From: Chitinophagaceae bacterium
GTDB taxonomy: Bacteria > Bacteroidota > Bacteroidia > Chitinophagales > Chitinophagaceae
Length of the DNA stretch: 35,267 bases
Direction of reading: 5' to 3'
Assembly: GCA_947455425.1 (NCBI GenBank)
Contig: CANGOT010000002.1
Coordinates: forward strand, 1 to 35,267
The position numbers and the translations under genes were made by a program. The notes beneath the pieces are model-generated. The model searched no databases, was not told where the DNA came from, and saw only the letters and a program-made list of their open reading frames with translations. Positions 5,321 to 33,630 of this stretch are shown here, piece after piece. Position 1 is the stretch's first letter. Each line of letters opens with the position of its first letter.

Positions 5321-8300
5321 TTATAGATTAACATTTAATCCAAAAGTCAATGTTCTAATTGGAGGATATGTAGCATCAGATGTTCCTGTAAAATTACGTT
5401 GAGGATCGATTCCTTTTTTAGCAGTAAATAATGCAACGTTATCGATATTTCCAAATACAGACAAGCCAACTAAATGCAACTTGTTTGCTGTAGCTTTTGG
5501 TAAATTATATGTCAGTGAAATATTCTTAATATTGATATATGATCTATCAAATAAGTATCTAGAAGACGTACCCAATTGATCTGCAATACCATTTTGAACT
5601 CTTGGAACATTTGTTACATCACCTGGTTTTTTCCAAGCATTTAAAATATCTGTATGCCAAGCAGTTCCGTAAGAACCAGAATGCATTAATCCTTCATAGT
5701 TACCATCATAGAATTTACCACCATAAGAATATGTAGTTAAAATTGATAATTCATAGTTTCTAAATCTGAATGTATTAGTAATACCACCAGACCAATCAGC
5801 TAATGGTTTTCCAACATAATAACGATTTGCAGCACTCCATGAAGTAGTAACGGTTCTTGCACCAGTAGACTTTCCACCAGCATCTAAAACGTCTTTATAA
5901 TATAACGCATCACCAGTTGCAGCATCAACACCAGCAAATTCACGAATAAAGAAATCATAAACACCTTGTCCTACTTTAAGTTTATTTAAACCATTAATAG
6001 GTATATTAATAGCTTCTTTATTTTTGAAATTACCTGGTAAATAAGTTACTTCGTTTTTATACGCTGTAAAGTTTACATCTACTCTCCAATCAAAATTCTT
6101 TTTCATAATCACGTTACAACCAATTTGAATTTCAACACCCTTATTTTTCATGTTAGCAACGTTTCCTGGTGTTGTAACAAGAGCCGTTGATGGTGTATTT
6201 GGCACATCCAATAACATTCCATCCGATCCTCTTTCAAAATAATCTATCGAACCTTGAACTCTTTTATTAAATAAAACAAAGTCAACTCCGAAATTAGTTC
6301 CAAATTGTTTTTCCCAAGTTAGTTTAGGGTTCGCTCCATAAACATCTGGTACATATCCACTATAACCTGAGTTAGCAAAACCACCCAAATAATTTATTTG
6401 ATATGCATAATAGGTTCCAATATCCTCATTACCAAGACTTCCATAGTCAGCCTTTAATTTCAACTCATTTATCCAGCTAATTTTCTTCATAAATGATTCT
6501 TCTGAAATTCTCCATCCAGCACCAATGGACCAAAAGTCTCCTTGTCTTGCACTAGAAGAGAATCTAGAATTACCATCTCTCCTGTATGAACCACTAAAGA
6601 TATATCTATTATTATAGTCATATTGCAATCGACTAAAATATCCCTCTATTCTGTGATTATTCTGAAATGAATTACTACCCTCTTCTACAGTCGCCTGTCC
6701 CAATTCTATTGTTCCAGGAAAAGTAAAACCTGTTTTTGTTCCTGAAACATAATCGTTTTGGAAAAAATAATTTTCGTGACCAACTAAAGCACTAAAGTTG
6801 TTTTTTCCAAAAGACTGACTCCAGTTTAAAACTTCATTTAATGTATAAGTTAACTGACGTGTGTTTGATTTAGTAGTTCTACCTTTTACATTTGCAGCAT
6901 CTCCATACTGTCCATTTTGAAAGGTGGTTCCATAACCATTGTAATTATTCACCCCTAGAGTGGTTTTAAGGTTAAAATGCTTAGCCAACTTAATGTCTAA
7001 ATAAGCATTTGCATTTAAATTCAAATTAGTCGAATGTCTGTCATCTAGAGCTAAAGTACCAACTAAATTTGAATTAGCTGCGTATGGTCTTGAACCCATT
7101 TGAGAAGGAACACCCCAATCTAACGTTGGTTGGCCACTAACAGGGTCTATAACATAAGCACCAGTAGTAGTGTTGTGTTGGTAGATTGGATAGATCGGCC
7201 CCATCTGTTGAGAATAATAAAAAGGGTTACTAGTGGCAGTACCTCCATTAATAACATTTGTATTTTGTGTAACGCCTCCATCTAAATTAAGACCCGCTTT
7301 CAACCAATTGCTAGCTTCAGCATTCATGCTTAAACGCATATTATATCTCTTGAATCCAGAATTTATCATAGTTCCTTCTTCATTCAAGTAACCAAATGAC
7401 ATTAGGTAATCACTTCTATCCCCAGCACCAGCTATTGAAGTTGTAACATTTTGTCTTTGTGCTGTTCTGAATAAAGCTTTTGACCAAGACTCATTCCAAA
7501 GTAATTTGGCGTTTGAGTTAAGCTTTCCTGTTGTTGGATCTACTAATTGATCCCCAGGAACATTGTAAGCATTGTAAACTAAGTGACTTCCATCAGTTAA
7601 TTGTTGAGAAGCATTTTGTCCAGCTTGAGCCATAGTAATTGGGTTACCACTAGCTTGACCTGTTGCATATAATGAATTTTTCGTAGCTTCCCACATCATT
7701 TCATAATATTGCTTAGAATTCAATCTCTCATACTCAGGAATTCCACGATTTGAAAAGCCTTGAGTTATTTTAGCAGAAATTTGTGGTTTACCTTTTTTTC
7801 CTCTTTTTGTAGTTATCATTACAACTCCATTTGCTCCACGAGAACCAAACAATGCTCCAGATGCAGCGTCTTTTAAAATAGTTACGCTTTCAATATCATC
7901 GGGATTTAACGCAGATATAGAACCTGTGTAAACAACGCCATTTAAAACATATAAAGGACCAGTACCATTTGAAATCGAACCAATACCTCTAACAATAAGA
8001 TCTGAACTTGAACCAGGAGCTCCACCACCATTTGAAGAAGAAACACCCGCAACCAAACCATCAAGTGCCTTGGTAAAGTTAACAGGTTGTTGTTGTGCAA
8101 TTTGCTTAGCAGTAACAGTTCCTTCAGATCCGACAAATCCTGTTTTTTTCACAGTACCATAAGGCACCTGAACAACAACTTCATCTAAATCTTTAGTAGA
8201 AGTTTTTACACTTGCTAATACATTACCAGAAATTGGAATGGTAACTTTTTGGGGTTCCATTGAAGCACCTGTGATAGTTAATGTTTTAGCATTTGTAGGA

Positions 8301-8488
8301 ACAGAAATTGTAAATGTTCCGTCTTCCTTTGTAATAGCACCTTTAGTAGATCCTGATACAATTACTGAAGCACCGGCTACAGCCTTACCATTTTCATCGG
8401 TTACCTTACCTGTTACAGTTCGGTTTTGTGCCCAAACCTGAGCAACCGAGAAAAGAAAAAACATTAAAAGAATTGTGAGTTTTCTCAT
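5321..8488 (-). CDS. susC-like: SusC/RagA family TonB-linked outer membrane protein
   Basis: Signal peptide, carboxypeptidase-like domain (VTGKVTDENGKAVAGASV), plug (DLIVRGIGSISNGTGPLYVLNGV, SVTILKDAASGALFGSRGANGVVMITTKRGK), and C-terminal barrel PIRTLTFGLNVNL. Confidence 0.97.
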   Translation of the reverse strand: MRKLTILLMFFLFSVAQVWAQNRTVTGKVTDENGKAVAGASVIVSGSTKGAITKEDGTFTISVPTNAKTLTITGASMEPQKVTIPISGNVLASVKTSTKDLDEVVVQVPYGTVKKTGFVGSEGTVTAKQIAQQQPVNFTKALDGLVAGVSSSNGGGAPGSSSDLIVRGIGSISNGTGPLYVLNGVVYTGSISALNPDDIESVTILKDAASGALFGSRGANGVVMITTKRGKKGKPQISAKITQGFSNRGIPEYERLNSKQYYEMMWEATKNSLYATGQASGNPITMAQAGQNASQQLTDGSHLVYNAYNVPGDQLVDPTTGKLNSNAKLLWNESWSKALFRTAQRQNVTTSIAGAGDRSDYLMSFGYLNEEGTMINSGFKRYNMRLSMNAEASNWLKAGLNLDGGVTQNTNVINGGTATSNPFYYSQQMGPIYPIYQHNTTTGAYVIDPVSGQPTLDWGVPSQMGSRPYAANSNLVGTLALDDRHSTNLNLNANAYLDIKLAKHFNLKTTLGVNNYNGYGTTFQNGQYGDAANVKGRTTKSNTRQLTYTLNEVLNWSQSFGKNNFSALVGHENYFFQNDYVSGTKTGFTFPGTIELGQATVEEGSNSFQNNHRIEGYFSRLQYDYNNRYIFSGSYRRDGNSRFSSSARQGDFWSIGAGWRISEESFMKKISWINELKLKADYGSLGNEDIGTYYAYQINYLGGFANSGYSGYVPDVYGANPKLTWEKQFGTNFGVDFVLFNKRVQGSIDYFERGSDGMLLDVPNTPSTALVTTPGNVANMKNKGVEIQIGCNVIMKKNFDWRVDVNFTAYKNEVTYLPGNFKNKEAINIPINGLNKLKVGQGVYDFFIREFAGVDAATGDALYYKDVLDAGGKSTGARTVTTSWSAANRYYVGKPLADWSGGITNTFRFRNYELSILTTYSYGGKFYDGNYEGLMHSGSYGTAWHTDILNAWKKPGDVTNVPRVQNGIADQLGTSSRYLFDRSYINIKNISLTYNLPKATANKLHLVGLSVFGNIDNVALFTAKKGIDPQRNFTGTSDATYPPIRTLTFGLNVNL

Positions 8489-8787
8489 ATCGCGTTTTTA
8501 AGTTAAAAATTAAGTTTGCAATAATAAGACAAAAAAATTTAACATTTCGTTGCATCGTTTAGAAAAATATTTTTTATTTCTACTAACTTGCTCATTTTTA
8601 AATACTTGCATTTTGTCTTTTAGCAGCAAGCTGCCTGCACCACAACGCTTATTGATTCCATTTAAATAAATTTAACATTTTTATATCACTTAATTCCTTA
8701 TTAAAGTTTGTACTAAAAGTTTCCGAAAGATGTAATCAGGCTAATTTTACAAATGCTTCAAAGAATGAATCAGAAACAACCTTATTT

Positions 8788-9723
8788 ATGCATAAAATCA
8801 TCACACTAACACTTAATCCTTGTATTGATAAAACTATTTGGGTTGATAAACTGATTCCAGATAAAAAATTAAAAGCAAAACACCCTGAAGATGAACCTGG
8901 TGGCGGTGGAATCAATGTTTCGAGGGCTATTAATTATTTAAATAGAAAAAGTAAAGCACTTTTTCTGAACGGTGGAATGAATGCCCCCTATTTTAAACAA
9001 TTGATTACAGAAGAAGGTTTGGACTTTACTGAAATAAACATTGCTGGCAATACCAGAATGAACCTCATGCTGATTGACGAAAGCAACTCGCAAGAATATA
9101 GAATTGGAATGGATGGCCCAAATGTTTCTGATGCAGAAATCAGCAATCTGATAAATACACTGAAAAAACAGAAAGATTACGATTTTCTGGTAGCAAGTGG
9201 TAGTTTACCCAAAAATATGCCTGATAATATATATGTAGAGATTGCCAAAATTGTTGAATCTCACAATGCTAAGTTCATTTTAGATACTTCAGGTAAAGCA
9301 CTGCAAAATATGGTGCAGCAAAAAGTTTTTTTACTAAAGCCTAATCTGAACGAATTGAGTATTTTATGTGGTATTAATGAAAACGCAAGTATTGATGATA
9401 TTATTACCGCCACTCAAGAACTACTTAATAAAATATATTGCAACATTATTGTTGTTTCGTTGGGGAGCAAGGGTGCTATTATGGTCACAAAAAATGAAAC
9501 CCATCATATACTTCCCCCTGCAGTTGAGGTTAAAAGCACTGTGGGTGCTGGTGATTGTATGGTTGCTGGAATGACAATAGCTTTATCAGAAAATTTATCT
9601 TTTAAAGAAGTATTACAATATGGTATTGCTTGTGGCACGGCTGCTACACTAAACGCCGGTAGAGGCTTATGCAAAAAAGAAGATTTTGAGAAACTATTGA
9701 TTGAAATAAAAAGCAACACTTAA
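8788..9723 (+). CDS. PfkB-family hexose kinase (1-phosphofructokinase / 6-phosphofructokinase II-like)
   Basis: TLTLNPCIDKTIWVD, EPGGGGINVSRAI, STVGAGDCMVAGM (PfkB signature). Confidence 0.9.
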   Translation: MHKIITLTLNPCIDKTIWVDKLIPDKKLKAKHPEDEPGGGGINVSRAINYLNRKSKALFLNGGMNAPYFKQLITEEGLDFTEINIAGNTRMNLMLIDESNSQEYRIGMDGPNVSDAEISNLINTLKKQKDYDFLVASGSLPKNMPDNIYVEIAKIVESHNAKFILDTSGKALQNMVQQKVFLLKPNLNELSILCGINENASIDDIITATQELLNKIYCNIIVVSLGSKGAIMVTKNETHHILPPAVEVKSTVGAGDCMVAGMTIALSENLSFKEVLQYGIACGTAATLNAGRGLCKKEDFEKLLIEIKSNT

Positions 9724-9767
9724 AATATCTACCACATTTTACCTCATACTTTTATCTTCGCTGCTAT

Positions 9768-10970
9768 ATGCAGCAATTAACAAACGAACAACTAATTCAA
9801 GCAGCTCAGCAGTTTGGAACACCCCTTTATGTATATCATTCAGAAAAAATATCTGAAAAATATCAGCAACTTACTACTGCTTTTCACAAGTCTAATACAA
9901 AAATATTTTATGCTTGTAAAGCTTTAACCAATATCAGCATCTTAAAACATATTAAAAGTCTTGGTTGTAATGTAGATTGTAGCAGTATTAACGAAGTAAA
10001 ACTTGCCCTGTATGCAGGTTTTAAGCCAACTGAAATTTTATACACCAGTAATGGGATTGCGTTTAACGAAATTGTTGAGGCAAAAGAATTGGGTGTATAT
10101 ATTACCATAGATAGCCTTTCGAACCTTGCAAAATTTGGAGCTGCATTTGGCAACACTTATCCCATTAGTTTAAGAATAAGACCCAATATAATGGGTGGGG
10201 GCAATATTCAAATTTCTACGGGTCACGATGAAAGTAAATTTGGTATTCCCATTACACAACTTCAGCAAATTTTAGAGCTGGTTCAGCAATACAATATCAA
10301 CGTTCAAGGATTGCATATTCATACAGGAAGCGATATAGACAATATTGATGTTTTTATAAAGGGGATTGAAGTATTGTTCGAAATTATTCATCAGTTTCCA
10401 AACCTTAAGTTTATAGATTTGGGTAGTGGTTTTAAAGTAAAATATAAAGAGGGAGATAAGCCTACTGATATTTCTTTATTGGCTCAAAAGATTTATGAAG
10501 ATTTCGACAACCATCCATCTGCAAAGAATCTGGAGATTTGGTTTGAGCCCGGCAAGTTTTTAGTGAGCGAATGTGGCCATTTTATTACACAGGTAAATGT
10601 AATAAAACATAATGAAGAAGCTACTTTTATAGGTGTTGATAGTGGTTTTAATCATCTGATTCGCCCTATGTTTTATGGCTCTTATCATACTATTAAAAAC
10701 ATATCAAACCCCAATGGTGAAGAACAGGAATATGCCGTTGTAGGTAACCTTTGCGAAACAGACACATTTGCATGGAAAAGAAAAATTGCCACCACCCAAG
10801 AAGGGGATTACCTATGTTTTAGTAATGCCGGTGCTTATGGCTTTGAAATGAGCAGCAACTTTAATAGCCGTTATAAACCTGCCGAAGTTTTATTTAAAAA
10901 CAATGAGGCTTCATTAATTCGCAGAAGAGATGTTTTTGAAGATTTATTGAGAAACCAAACAGGGTTATAA
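9768..10970 (+). CDS. lysA: Diaminopimelate decarboxylase
   Basis: FYACKALTNISILKHIKSLGCNVDCSS (PLP lysine), GLHIHTGSDI, EPGKFLVSECG, LCETDTFAWKR, NAGAYGFEMSSNFNSR. Confidence 0.93.
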   Translation: MQQLTNEQLIQAAQQFGTPLYVYHSEKISEKYQQLTTAFHKSNTKIFYACKALTNISILKHIKSLGCNVDCSSINEVKLALYAGFKPTEILYTSNGIAFNEIVEAKELGVYITIDSLSNLAKFGAAFGNTYPISLRIRPNIMGGGNIQISTGHDESKFGIPITQLQQILELVQQYNINVQGLHIHTGSDIDNIDVFIKGIEVLFEIIHQFPNLKFIDLGSGFKVKYKEGDKPTDISLLAQKIYEDFDNHPSAKNLEIWFEPGKFLVSECGHFITQVNVIKHNEEATFIGVDSGFNHLIRPMFYGSYHTIKNISNPNGEEQEYAVVGNLCETDTFAWKRKIATTQEGDYLCFSNAGAYGFEMSSNFNSRYKPAEVLFKNNEASLIRRRDVFEDLLRNQTGL

Positions 10971-11279
10971 ATTTCTTTGCAACAGCCCTTTGTAAATGGC
11001 TACTTCTTTTTGCAAATCTTCTACTTGTTTTTGCAGAGCAAGCTCTTTATCTGATGGAATTTCAAGCGGTAGTTTATTTGCCAAAAGGCTAAACATATTT
11101 ACACCCAATACCAAACTTGCTTTCCATAAATCTTTGGTATACAAGCTATCTTTTTCTATAAATCTTTTAACTGCCATTTGATTGGTGTTAAGGGCAGCAG
11201 CAAACTCGGCTTTATTATACCGTTTTTGCTTCATTAATTCATACAACAAGCTTCCGTTGTGTGGCATTGATTGTGGCAT
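10965..11279 (-). CDS. Small HTH-like DNA-binding protein with C-terminal coiled coil
   Basis: LLYELMKQKRYNKAEFAAALNTNQMAVKRFIEKDSL helix-turn-helix-like region followed by LALQKQVEDLQKEVAIYKGLLQ heptad pattern. Confidence 0.6.
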   Translation of the reverse strand: MPQSMPHNGSLLYELMKQKRYNKAEFAAALNTNQMAVKRFIEKDSLYTKDLWKASLVLGVNMFSLLANKLPLEIPSDKELALQKQVEDLQKEVAIYKGLLQRNL

Positions 11280-27866: not shown

Positions 27867-30845
27867 ATGCCAGAAAAGAAACTCTTCCTACTAGATGCTT
27901 ACGCACTAATTTTTCGTGCTTATTATGCTCTCATTCGTAATCCACGTATTACGAGCAAAGGCCGTAACACCAATGCACAGTTTGGTTTCACCAATACTTT
28001 AATAGAGTTAATTAAAAAAGAAAAGCCAACACATTTGGCTGTTTGTTTCGATGTAAGTGGCCCCACTGTTCGCGATGAAAAATATGAGTTTTACAAAGCC
28101 AACAGACAAGATGCTCCAGAAGATTTACTGGCAGCTGTACCCGATATTAAAAAGATTATAGAAGCTTTTAATATTCCTGTAATTGGTATAGAGGGTTATG
28201 AGGCTGATGATGTGATTGGTACATTAGCTTGGGAAGCTCACGATGCAGGTTACGAAGTATTTATGGTAACACCAGATAAGGATTATGGTCAGTTGGTGCG
28301 TGATGGCATTTATATGTATAAACCGAGTTCAGGTGGTGGGGATATTGAAATTCTTGGCCCAAAAGAAGTATGTGAAAAATGGGATATTAAACGTGTTGAT
28401 CAGGTAATTGATATATTGGGATTAATGGGTGATGCTGTGGATAATATTCCTGGTATTAAAGGCGTGGGAGAAAAAACTGCTGCTAAATTGTTGAAGGAAT
28501 ACGATACGCTTGAAGGTGTTTTAGAAAATGCAGATAGCATAAAAGGTTCTATTGGTGAAAAAGTAAGAGCAGGAAAAGAAGATGCCATTATGAGCAAAAT
28601 GCTCGCAACCATTATTACCAATGTACCTGTTGAGTTTCACGAAGAAAACTTTAAGCTAACAGAATGGAATAAAGATGCTTTGCAAGAAATATTTAATGAG
28701 CTGGAGTTTAGAACATTGGCTAAAAGATTGTTTGGTGATGGGCCTGCAAACAGTGAGACTTATCAGGCAAAGGATTTGTTTGGAGATGTAATTTACAAAC
28801 CACTGGGTTCAAAAAAAGCAACTGGAACACAAAGTGCACAAGCACCATCGTTATTTGATAGTCCTGCCGATAATTCGCGTCACGGGTCTGTGGCTTTGCC
28901 ATCGTTTCTACAGAGTATAGCACCAGTTGATGATTCAAATGAAGAAGAAATCAGTGAAGCACACGTTGCTTTTTTCAAAACAATAAAAGACGTTGAACAT
29001 AATTATCATTTGGTAAACACTCCAGAACTAATTAACGAATTAATCAATAAACTAATTAAACAAACAGAGATTTGTTTCGATACTGAAACCACCAATATTG
29101 ACGCAAATGAAGCTGAGTTGGTAGGAATGAGTTTCTCCATCACACCACACGAAGCTTATTATGTTCCTTGCCCCAACGAGAAACAAGAAACAAGAAACTT
29201 ATTAGAGCATTTTATGTCATTATTTAATGATGAAAGTAAAGTGTGGATTGGTCAAAACCTAAAATATGATATGTTGGTGTTGAAGTGGTACAACATAGCA
29301 TTGAAAGGTAATATCTGCGATACTATGCTGATGCATTATGTGGTGGAGCCTGAGGGCAAACGCAGTATGGATGCATTGAGCCAACAATATTTAAACTATG
29401 AGCCAATCCATATTGATGAATTGATTGGTAAGAAAACACGTAAAGCAACGAATAAAATCGGAGAATTAGGGCTAGATGCAGCTTCTTTAAAACAAGGAAA
29501 TATGAGAGATGTGGATGTGGAAATTGTAAAAGATTATGCTGCAGAAGATGCAGATATAACCTTACAATTAAAACATCAACTGTTTCCAATGCTAAAAGAA
29601 AAAGAGGTAGAGAAAGTGTTTAATGAAGTGGAGAATCCATTGGTGAAAGTATTGACAGCTATGGAGTTTGAGGGTGTTAAAGTAGATGTTGACTTTTTAA
29701 ACGAATACAGTAAACTGCTTGATGTGGATGCACGCAAGGCAGAAGAAAGTGTATATATGCAGGCAGGGGTGAAGTTTAATCTGGCATCGCCAAAACAATT
29801 GGGCGAAGTGTTGTTCGATAAAATGCAATTAGATTCATCTGCTAAAAAAACCAAGACTGGACAATACCAGACGGGTGAAGATGTATTACAAAAACTAGCT
29901 ACCAAAGGTCATCAAATTGTAGAAGATATTCTGGTGTTCAGAGAATTGACCAAACTAAAATCTACCTATGTAGATGCTTTGCCTAAACTGATTAACAGTA
30001 AAACAGGACGTGTGCATACCAGCTATGCACAAGCTGTTGCGGTTACAGGACGTTTAAGCAGTAATAACCCCAACCTGCAAAACATTCCTATTAGAACAGA
30101 CAGAGGCAAAGAAATTCGTAAAGCATTTGTACCACGCAGTGCTGATAGAATTTTAGTAAGTGCCGATTACTCTCAAATAGAATTAAGAATTGTGGCTGCT
30201 ATTAGTGGCGACCCTAATATGTGTGAAGCTTTTCGTTTAGGTAAAGACATTCACACAGCCACAGCTGCAAAGGTTTATAATATTGAGGAAGCCGATGTAA
30301 CCAAAGAAATGCGATACAAAGCCAAGAGCGTGAACTTTGGAATTATTTATGGGCAAGGTGCATTTGGTTTAGCAGATAATTTGGGCATCAGCCGAACCGA
30401 ATCAAAAGAAATTATAGATAACTATAAACGCGAGTTTGCTAGCATTAAAAAGTATATGGACGATACCATCAACTTTGCTCGTGAAAATGGTTTTGTTGAA
30501 ACCTTAATGGGCAGAAAACGTTGGTTAAGAGATATTAACAGTAGCAATTTTACGGTGCGTGGCTTTGCTGAACGCAATGCCATTAACAGCCCCATACAAG
30601 GCACAGCAGCAGATATGATAAAACTGGCTATGATTAAAATACAGGCTCAGTTGGAAAAAGAAAAACTACAAAGCAAAATGATTTTGCAGGTGCACGATGA
30701 ATTGATTTTTGATGCTGTACCCGAAGAAATAGACATACTAAAACCACTGATTTTAGAGAATATGAAATCGGCATTGCTATTGCCAAACGATGTACCTGTA
30801 GAAGCAGAATTGGGAATGGGTAAAAACTGGTTGGATGCACATTAA
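27867..30845 (+). CDS. polA: DNA polymerase I with 5'-3' exo, 3'-5' exo and polymerase domains
   Basis: LFLLDAYALIFRAYYA; exo motifs CFDTETT, GQNLKYDMLVL, DYAAEDADI; polymerase motifs SADYSQIELRIVAAIS, YKAKSVNFGIIYGQG, ILQVHDELIFD. Confidence 0.97.
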   Translation: MPEKKLFLLDAYALIFRAYYALIRNPRITSKGRNTNAQFGFTNTLIELIKKEKPTHLAVCFDVSGPTVRDEKYEFYKANRQDAPEDLLAAVPDIKKIIEAFNIPVIGIEGYEADDVIGTLAWEAHDAGYEVFMVTPDKDYGQLVRDGIYMYKPSSGGGDIEILGPKEVCEKWDIKRVDQVIDILGLMGDAVDNIPGIKGVGEKTAAKLLKEYDTLEGVLENADSIKGSIGEKVRAGKEDAIMSKMLATIITNVPVEFHEENFKLTEWNKDALQEIFNELEFRTLAKRLFGDGPANSETYQAKDLFGDVIYKPLGSKKATGTQSAQAPSLFDSPADNSRHGSVALPSFLQSIAPVDDSNEEEISEAHVAFFKTIKDVEHNYHLVNTPELINELINKLIKQTEICFDTETTNIDANEAELVGMSFSITPHEAYYVPCPNEKQETRNLLEHFMSLFNDESKVWIGQNLKYDMLVLKWYNIALKGNICDTMLMHYVVEPEGKRSMDALSQQYLNYEPIHIDELIGKKTRKATNKIGELGLDAASLKQGNMRDVDVEIVKDYAAEDADITLQLKHQLFPMLKEKEVEKVFNEVENPLVKVLTAMEFEGVKVDVDFLNEYSKLLDVDARKAEESVYMQAGVKFNLASPKQLGEVLFDKMQLDSSAKKTKTGQYQTGEDVLQKLATKGHQIVEDILVFRELTKLKSTYVDALPKLINSKTGRVHTSYAQAVAVTGRLSSNNPNLQNIPIRTDRGKEIRKAFVPRSADRILVSADYSQIELRIVAAISGDPNMCEAFRLGKDIHTATAAKVYNIEEADVTKEMRYKAKSVNFGIIYGQGAFGLADNLGISRTESKEIIDNYKREFASIKKYMDDTINFARENGFVETLMGRKRWLRDINSSNFTVRGFAERNAINSPIQGTAADMIKLAMIKIQAQLEKEKLQSKMILQVHDELIFDAVPEEIDILKPLILENMKSALLLPNDVPVEAELGMGKNWLDAH

Positions 30846-30871
30846 AGAGTGACAAAATGTTAATGATTAAT

Positions 30872-30879
30872 TATATTTG
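30872..30879 (+). promoter_or_regulatory. TAnnTTTG promoter element driving the nucleotidyltransferase cassette
   Basis: TATATTTG, 5 nt before the ATG at 30885. Confidence 0.5.
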
Positions 30880-30884
30880 ATTTT

Positions 30885-31091
30885 ATGGATAAAGAATTTA
30901 AAATGGATAGGACATTAGTTTATTCTCAAACATTTGAAGAAGCTAATAATCACACAACATTTTACGATAATAAATCTATTCAAGAAAGAGTCAATGCTGC
31001 TTGCTTCATCATTTACAATATTTATGGAACTAATCAACACACAAAAGTTGATAGAACAATCATTACTAAAAGAAAACACGAAAACAAATGA
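30885..31091 (+). CDS. Small hypothetical protein, candidate partner/antitoxin of the downstream nucleotidyltransferase
   Basis: 68-aa ORF ending ...DRTIITKRKHENK; its stop overlaps the next start (ATGA). Confidence 0.6.
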   Translation: MDKEFKMDRTLVYSQTFEEANNHTTFYDNKSIQERVNAACFIIYNIYGTNQHTKVDRTIITKRKHENK

Positions 31092-31549
31092 GTAATTTTT
31101 TTAATGATGATTTCATTGATTTTTTAAAAGCATTACAAAACAATCAGGTAAAATATTTATTAGTTGGGGGTTATGCTGTAATTATGAATGGATATATTAG
31201 AAGTACGTCAGATATGGATGTTTGGATTGACAAGACAGAAGAAAATTACTTAAAACTAGCAAACGCATTTTACGAATTTGGTGCTCCAATTTTTTCTAAA
31301 AAAGACTTTTTAAGCAATGACTTTGATGTGTGGGCTATAGGAAGAGAACCTAATAAAATAGAAATATTAACCGCTGTAAAAGGTATTGAATTTGATGAAT
31401 CTTACAGAACACATAATCTCTTTGATATTGGATTGTTTAAAGTGCCTTTTATAAACCTTACAACATTACTAAAAGCAAAAGAAGCAGCAGGAAGATATAA
31501 AGACAAAGCAGATATTGAAGAGTTAAAAAAGAAAAACGGAGATAACTAG
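31088..31549 (+). CDS. Nucleotidyltransferase-fold protein (DUF6036 / AbiEii- or MNT-like)
   Basis: VKYLLVGGYAVIMNGYIRSTSDMDVWID (GG...DxD nucleotidyltransferase motif), TTLLKAKEAAGRYKDKADIEEL. Confidence 0.78.
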   Translation: MSNFFNDDFIDFLKALQNNQVKYLLVGGYAVIMNGYIRSTSDMDVWIDKTEENYLKLANAFYEFGAPIFSKKDFLSNDFDVWAIGREPNKIEILTAVKGIEFDESYRTHNLFDIGLFKVPFINLTTLLKAKEAAGRYKDKADIEELKKKNGDN

Positions 31550-31570
31550 TTTTTAAAACAACTGCAGTCA

Positions 31571-31636
31571 TTACCTAATGATGTGCCTGTTGAAGCAGAA
31601 TTGGGAATGGGTAAAAACTGGCTGGATGCACATTAG
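31571..31636 (+). pseudogene. Second copy of the polA 3' terminus (22 codons including stop)
   Basis: Encodes LPNDVPVEAELGMGKNWLDAH*, identical in protein to the end of polA (30780-30845); differences all synonymous. Confidence 0.95.
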
Positions 31637-31663
31637 GTGGCTTACTTTGTTTATAATAAAATG

Positions 31664-31696
31664 CCTACAATGCTTTGCAACATTGTAGGGTTTTAT
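31664..31696 (+). terminator. Intrinsic terminator downstream of the polA-tail copy
   Basis: CCTACAATG-ctttgcaa-CATTGTAGG-GTTTTAT. Confidence 0.75.
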
Positions 31697-31795
31697 ATTT
31701 AGTTACTTTTCTTTCATCTTAGCCAATGTAGTGTTATGCACTAATATTTTACTGTTTATTAAAGAATTGGAAATCTCTATAAACACTTAGTGTTC

Positions 31796-31890: not shown

Positions 31891-33630
31891 TTACTGTATT
31901 TGCACTGGGGTGTTTCTATCGGTTGTTGTACTATCGCCCAATTGTCCAGTACTATTACTACCCCAAGCCCATAAAGTACCGTCGTTTTTTAAGGCCATAG
32001 TATGATAATAACCAGCACTAACGCTTACCCAATTGGTTGCCGTGCCTATTTTGACAGGGCTGTTACTATTGGTGGTAGAACCAACGCCCAGTTGCCCTGC
32101 ATTATTCTGACCCCAAGCCCATAAACTACCATCGGTTTTTATGGCTGAACTATGAGCACCACCTGCACTATTGCTTGCCCAATTGGCTCCTATTTGCAGT
32201 GGACTGTTTTTATTGGTATTAGTGCCATCGCCCAATTGCCCATTGTCATTCCTACCCCAAGCCCATAAACTACCATCGGTTTTTATGGCTATGGTATGAG
32301 AAAAACCTGCAACTATGCTTGCCCAATTTGTTTCAGTGCCTATTTGCACGGGGCTGTGGTTCTCTGTAATATTTGTAGTGCCATCGCCTAATTGTCCAAA
32401 TCCATTATTACCCCAAGCCCATAAACTACCATCGTTTTTTATGGCTATGGTATTTAAAGTTCCTGCAATAATACTTGCCCAATTATTTGCAGTACCTATT
32501 TGCACTGGGCTGTTTTTATTGGTAGTAGTACCATCACCCAATTGTCCATTACTATTCCTACCCCAAGCCCATAAACTACCATCAGTTTTAATGGCTAATG
32601 TGTGATCGTCCCTTGCACTAATGCTTGCCCAATTTGTTTCAGTGCCTATTTGTACAGGACTATTTCTTTGGGTAAAAGTGCCATCGCCTAATTCCCCTAC
32701 GATATTATAACCCCAAGCCCACAAACTGCCATCGGTTTTAATGGCTATGGTGTGATGATCACCCGCACTAATGCTTGTCCAATTGGTTGCCGAGCCTATT
32801 TGTTTGGGGCTGTTTCTTTGGGTATTTGTGCCATCGCCTAACTCACCATAAGGATTATTACCCCAAGCCCACAAACTGCCATCAGTATTTATGGCTATGG
32901 TATAATACCCACCTGCACTTACTTTTTTCCAATTATGATTAATAGTAGTTATTTTAGTTGTTTTAAAACTTATTTCGTTTCCATAAGCTGTACCAACGGC
33001 GTTAATTGCATAGGCTCTAACATAGTAAATTGTACTATTTAGAAGCCCATTTAAGTTACTTGAATAAGCCCCTACACCACTGCTATCAGATGTTTTGGTA
33101 GATAAAAGAACTGAAGGATTTGGATTCGTGCTCCATACAATTCCTCTTGATGTTACTGGACTACCACCATCGCTGGTAATATTCCCACCACTATTTGCAC
33201 TAACACTTTTGATATTAGAAATAGGTGTTGTAACCAAAGTTGGCAGCTTAAGATTATTTTGTGTAGATATTGTTACCTCGTTTGTATAAGTTAAAGAACT
33301 ACCTGCTGCATTAAAAGCATAAACTCTATAGGTATAAGCTGTGTTGGCAACAAGATTACTATCGGTATAGTTTGTAATGTTAACAGCTGTTTTACCAATT
33401 ACAGTATAAGTGCCATTAGTTATCCTTCTTTCAATTTTAAAACTGTCTTCATTGGTAGAGTTGTCTGTCCACGCAAGGTTTACTTTGCTTGTAGATACAG
33501 CTTGTCCAGTAAGGTTAGTAGGTGCAATTGGCACTACTGTAACTGTGGTGGTGTTTCCATTAGTTTCTTTTTTACAAGATGTTATTTGCAAAAGAATAAT
33601 GGCTAATAGAAGGTAAATTATTTTTTTCAT
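31891..33630 (-). CDS. Lipoprotein with fibronectin type III region and seven RCC1-type repeats
   Basis: [22 protein letters not shown] lipobox; FN3-like [33 protein letters not shown]; seven copies of (D)GSLWAWGxNxxGxLGDGT...SPVQIGTxTNWASIxAGxxHTIAIK. Confidence 0.92.

Follow-up and report, generated by a model that had tools for sequence, protein, structure and literature searches.

Diverged copies of a polA gene end around a nucleotidyltransferase cassette in a Chitinophagaceae bacterium: a probable footprint of one-sided gene capture

The window analysed in this study, a stretch of 35,267 nucleotides from a Chitinophagaceae bacterium, contains a complete polA gene whose last 22 codons recur behind a two-gene insert, and the locus is probably the footprint of a one-sided gene capture from the DNA of a related species. 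Both copies of the gene end come from coding selection, the same anatomy recurs at numerous further genes and around different cargo, and in the case of uvrB, in another genus, a congener carries the cassette with a single gene end.

The two polA tails and the gene pair between them

The features of the locus are collected in Table 1. The tail repeat comprises 66 nt with 91% identity, the second copy lying 791 bp downstream of the first, and it is not explained by chance (blastn E about 1e-22). An earlier note on this DNA had described the two copies as differing at seven positions, all synonymous, and comparison codon by codon confirmed this: the pairs are TTG/TTA, CCA/CCT, AAC/AAT, GTA/GTG, GTA/GTT, TTG/CTG and, for the stop codons, TAA/TAG (tail 1 first), with 0 amino-acid changes. 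For about 21 nt upstream of tail 2, TTTTTAAAACAACTGCAGTCA may be compared with polA ATTTTAGAGAATATGAAATCG if a 9-nt deletion is assumed, a weak likeness judged by eye that might represent extra homology. A scan of 419 kb (352 ORFs) of the 2.68 Mb genome found tail copies only at polA and cphA, a low-complexity repeat in the window being set aside.

Table 1. Features of the polA locus, in positions of the window
Feature	Position	Strand	Basis or remark
polA, complete, 992 aa	27867..30845	+	ORF; ends in tail 1, stop TAA
Functional polA end (tail 1), last 22 codons, stop TAA	30780..30845	+	would have arrived with the cassette
Inserted segment, 725 bp	30846..31570	+	missing behind polA in about 110 relatives
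ORF1, 68 aa, nucleotidyltransferase partner	30885..31091	+	ORF call
Nucleotidyltransferase, DUF6036-like, 153 aa	31088..31549	+	overlaps ORF1; Pfam, motifs, predicted fold
Displaced polA end (tail 2) with its 22 codons intact, stop TAG	31571..31636	+	probable native gene end
Hairpin with T-run (both strands), terminator-like, behind tail 2	31664..31689	+	sequence scan

The nearest named relatives of this polA belong to the Chitinophagaceae, and the last 280 amino acids of its product share 90-94% identity with those of three congeners. The alignment of the region behind polA across relatives, which the earlier note had proposed as a check, covered about 110 loci, including those of the three congeners, and every one of them has a single tail without the insert. 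The DNA behind polA is different in each congener, and the coding end is therefore the sole homology between species at this site. All three congeners end polA with TAG, as tail 2 does, while tail 1 ends with TAA. A terminator-like hairpin follows tail 2, and none was found on the plus strand from 30846 to 31663. Because the terminator adjoins tail 2 and the stop codon agrees with that of the three congeners, tail 2 is more likely to be the native end of polA, in keeping with what the note had suggested. A second stretch of the same genome (G000:C30:13437-13490) is 81% similar to the hairpin region (window 31646-31699). Farther downstream, the minus strand at 31891-33630 encodes a 579-aa RCC1/FN3-like lipoprotein with about seven internal repeats of 150 bp.

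The inserted segment holds only two ORFs: neither is a recombinase, the absence of which the note had also stated, and terminal inverted repeats, a transposase and a short exact target duplication, the features of insertion sequences, are all absent from the polA cassette. ORF1 has no match in Pfam, PADLOC or NCBIfam, and a small ORF lies upstream of the nucleotidyltransferase in most family members inspected. The second cassette protein is a small nucleotidyltransferase, with which the predicted fold and the DxD motif agree. It scores 22.5 bits (E 1e-4) against DUF6036 (Pfam PF19502), for which the gathering cut-off is 23.6, and its GG and DxD motif is invariant in 20 homologues. The predicted structure (mean pLDDT 86) has TM1012 and MenT1 (8an5, 8an4) among its best PDB matches, and a profile search matched the protein weakly to an AbiEii-type toxin. 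In its cargo, the locus is like the MenT and AbiEii-type toxins, having a predicted fold near that of MenT1 and a small upstream partner gene; it differs in that the structure matches share 14-20% identity and the protein has no match in PADLOC or NCBIfam. It is plausible that the nucleotidyltransferase and ORF1 form a toxin-antitoxin pair. Carriage of the cassette by a phage or plasmid was considered and rejected, with zero phage matches and only distant plasmid matches.

Flanked cassettes at other genes

A family-wide search found homologues of the nucleotidyltransferase in 143 of 399 genomes, and the loci were collected and scanned under uniform criteria for direct repeats flanking the nucleotidyltransferase gene. 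Such repeats flank 16 of 134 testable cassettes and 12 of 524 control short ORFs (Fisher P 1e-5), a contrast that is understated because the 12 control positives include five nucleotidyltransferase cassettes met again in larger loci, as well as the ORF6N case described below. Inspection by eye left about ten clean nucleotidyltransferase cases, multi-copy, palindromic or short-locus overlap artefacts (L116, L181, L206, L346, L361, L362, L381, L385, L393 and L055) not being counted. Genes at the surveyed loci were named by eye from their translations, without a family search, and the survey is bounded by its environmental genomes, its few clean cases and a simple neutral model.

Nucleotidyltransferase cassettes are flanked by duplicated tails of polA (the window), mutS (L150), uvrB (L162), an ABC-transporter gene (L130) and genes in L170 and L246, and by duplicated heads or upstream regions at cas1 (L220) and at the start of a downstream gene (L128). 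The pattern also occurs outside the family, in L340 and L356 (aroC tail). The duplications are 38-152 bp long, with one of 298 bp, and the clean gene-end pairs share 78-95% identity, none being near identical. The orientation of the cassette varies between loci, the flanking repeats are unalike at each locus, and neither inverted repeats nor a common core were found in the flanked cassettes.

The ABC-transporter gene of L130 lies upstream of atpB; in L249 this gene has an older relic, followed by a nucleotidyltransferase gene. The gap between the transporter gene and atpB may be a hotspot, since its insertions, accompanied by copies of the transporter tail, are not the same in the two genera. 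At L220 1604-2721, the cassette has a Cas9-like gene on one side and cas1 on the other, and a broken relic upstream repeats the initial 128 bp of cas1.

Other cargo leaves the same footprint. The genome that contains the window has such a case at cphA, a cyanophycin synthetase-like gene, 38 bp of whose tail are repeated around a single ORF6N gene (L251, G000:C1:20001-37132, reverse strand 7956-11217). Another ORF6N locus (L280) also has a duplicated tail, and two ParE loci (L371 and L368) show the same pattern. In L067 (4891-6150), a RAYT-like transposase gene with REP-like inverted ends stands beside a thrA-like gene, the leader and head of which, about 190 bp, occur in two copies (about 95%) around the RAYT gene. 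Transposition specific to the nucleotidyltransferase was rejected because of this recurrence at ORF6N, ParE and RAYT loci. The window's genome also contains, behind a phosphate transporter gene (L263, G000:C14, reverse strand 6075-6940), a phd-relE-like pair flanked by 40-bp repeats (80%) of noncoding DNA ending in ATCCTGATTCAGA.

Origin of the duplicated gene ends

Synonymous and nonsynonymous differences between the tails were counted for nine pairs: 6/0 plus the stop codon for polA, 12/0 for mutS, 10/6 for uvrB, 6/1 for the gene flanking ORF6N in L280, 3/0 for cphA, 3/1 for the ABC-transporter gene, and 4/4, 2/2 and, for the oldest, 15/14 for the rest. If one copy were free to change, the neutral model expects a synonymous share of 14-19%, and the 2/2 pair alone does not deviate significantly from it; nonsynonymous differences would prevail in a free second copy even if synonymous changes accumulated in the working copy after insertion. 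Where the flank scans were not cut at the stop, the homology of seven out of eight tails breaks off no more than 2 nt from the stop codon, and that of L130 goes on for 9 nt more. Such a halt is expected of the alleles of two species, since intergenic DNA diverges beyond recognition. The mostly synonymous differences and the halting of homology at the stop codon argue that the tail pairs are working gene ends, alleles from different lineages, rather than the products of a fresh target duplication. The analysis supports the view of the earlier note that a working polA, and not a recent local tandem duplication, is the source of the downstream copy.

Two comparisons of congeners bear on the process. 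In genus g12, G422 carries uvrB (TAA) followed by the cassette without a second tail, and G226 is collinear with it at 90% from uvrB through the 3' end of the nucleotidyltransferase gene; past that gene, G226 continues with another uvrB tail (TAG), of which 50 codons are readable, and then with its own flank. The single tail of G422 is a further argument against a decayed target-site duplication. Other g12 congeners have no cassette behind uvrB. Over the last 102 nt, the two tails of G226 differ at 11 sites, more than the seven at which its functional tail differs from each of two other species, G422 and G155. In genus g112, the order in G122 is mutS, tail 1 (TAA), cassette, tail 2 (TAG) and phd-relE, while in G200 mutS (TAG) is followed directly by phd-relE and the same cassette (92%) lies further on; the bases in front of it are those found after tail 1 of G122, and behind it comes a relic, 20 bp long, of the mutS tail. 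Congeners thus hold the same cassette on opposite sides of the phd-relE pair behind mutS (L150 and L147). Read from these alignments, the mutS arrangement suggests rearrangement or re-insertion via tail-containing intermediates. A recombination tract was sought along mutS between G122 and G200, and the divergence was uniform with no breakpoint.

The sequence of events that we propose for polA is as follows. A fragment of a related species' DNA would have carried the 3' end of its polA (TAA) together with the two-gene cassette, and the recipient would have had its own polA (TAG) followed by the terminator. The polA part of the fragment would recombine with the resident gene by homology, or rather homeology at about 10% divergence. 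The far end of the cassette, having no homology to the recipient's flank, would be attached by a non-homologous join within the resident polA, some 66 bp upstream of the stop codon, that is, by homology-facilitated illegitimate recombination (HFIR). Alternatively, the fragment might circularise and integrate by a single crossover in the tail, which would give the same anatomy; by either route, a hybrid gene end, the cargo and the resident gene end would be left in this order. polA would remain intact on the donor tail with the cassette next to it, the recipient tail would become a relic, and the cassette would need no recombinase of its own. From the context of the flanks, we infer that tail 1 is the donor's, and the joining mechanism is likewise inferred.

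This one-sided capture fits the uvrB pair, in which G422 has the cassette without, and G226 with, a second tail, and the independence of the footprint from the cargo also counts in its favour. At polA, the anatomy fits homology at one end only. Against the capture, neither a donor nor an empty-site strain near enough to the recipient allele was found to provide parental sequences for comparison. The count of congener-discordant sites is 10/16 in the last 150 bp of polA and 70/190 overall, a hint of a mosaic breakpoint in the last 100-150 bp, at a P value (0.03, uncorrected) that is not significant once several cut points are allowed for. ComEC-type competence genes, a further point in favour, were present in 13 of 13 genomes checked. 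Ku was present in only three of the 13; Ku-based end joining was accordingly rejected, and end joining would be Ku-independent in most of the genomes. Two further points weigh against the capture: the narrow spread of duplication lengths is left unexplained, and classical HFIR is expected to delete, not duplicate, recipient DNA (PMC3240628). In E. coli, most integrations of circularised molecules through one crossover left part of a gene duplicated over 109-950 bp (PMC3240628), and tail-containing intermediates at mutS would suit this circular variant.

An unlikely alternative is a transposition-like insertion in which a target of 40-150 bp was doubled and the working copy later swapped for another species' allele. 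Its anatomy is as reported for restriction-modification genes of Helicobacter pylori (Nobusato et al. 2000, Gene 259:99, as cited in PMC1643837 and PMC3031569), and the excess of flanked nucleotidyltransferase cassettes over other short genes is in its favour. Recent insertions should, however, exist among the clean gene-end pairs, none of which approaches identity; a second event would be required at each locus; and unrelated cargo leaves the same footprint without shared ends or a transposase. It is very unlikely that the cassette came long ago with an exact copy of the tail and that the copies have since drifted. The decayed tail of L249, in which two stop codons and 14 nonsynonymous changes are counted, and the in-frame stops of the cas1 head in L220 are what such a history would leave, but an unused copy should gain mostly nonsynonymous changes, with which the nonsynonymous/synonymous counts for polA (0/6), mutS (0/12) and cphA (0/3) are incompatible, and at the window locus an old duplication is largely refuted.

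Integrases that target gene ends restore gene function at the 3' end. A non-autonomous site-specific element that brings along a duplicate of the 3' end of its target, with a recombinase acting in trans, would do the same, and is highly improbable here since targets, repeats and cargo (nucleotidyltransferase, ORF6N, ParE, RAYT) all differ, as does orientation, heads are duplicated too, and no inverted repeats, common core or common attachment site unite the loci. Of the mechanisms that the earlier note had put forward, homologous exchange with a divergent strain is the one that the survey supports, and the small element that restores the 3' end of its target is not supported. An assembly artefact, which a genome in 364 contigs and 79% complete might invite, is the least probable explanation, as it would not yield seven synonymous-only differences and the same anatomy occurs within long contigs, for example of 3.32 Mb (L246, L335) and 222 kb (L324).

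Relation to known systems and significance

As far as it is described in the citing papers, insertion with long target duplication resembles the present loci in that small selfish-type genes without a recombinase are flanked by long, variable direct repeats of the target; at polA, such repeats flank the inserted genes and the site is empty in relatives, and the two copies appear to be different alleles rather than derivatives of one target at insertion. The cargo here is the nucleotidyltransferase pair, ORF6N or ParE rather than restriction-modification genes, the hosts are Chitinophagaceae and relatives, and synonymous differences mark the copies as diverged alleles. New here are the cargo, the host group, the intact anchor genes and the codon evidence for alleles from different lineages; if the copies are such alleles, "target duplication" may be a misnomer for cases of this kind. 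A homology that is apparently one-sided and a displaced resident 3' end persisting downstream are shared with HFIR and with T6SS immunity arrays (PMC5361080, PMC3240628), in the latter of which displaced 3' ends have been attributed to HFIR (PMC5361080); the polA locus is unlike these in that its anchor is a housekeeping gene that needs to stay intact and that a duplication, not a deletion, was left. In E. coli, Staphylococcus aureus and Streptococcus pyogenes, direct repeats flank about 10-18% of small variable segments (PMC2884548), close to the 12% flanked here; most of those repeats, unlike the present ones, are shorter than 30 bp, and they were interpreted as sites of deletion. Integrative elements that regenerate a 3' end differ by their recombinase and common attachment core, the repeats here being unrelated between loci.

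How small gene pairs without a recombinase move between genomes is an unsettled question. The scar that a displaced gene end represents preserves the event, the approximate distance of the donor and the side of the crossover, so that the sequence reveals how the genes moved, and the codon pattern offers a general test of allele capture against true target duplication. It is conceivable, and we offer it only tentatively, that small toxin-antitoxin-like pairs in Bacteroidota spread between species by being parked beside conserved genes, the homology of the gene serving as the address; such a recombinase-free capture at gene ends would regenerate the host gene and leave its displaced end as a datable scar.
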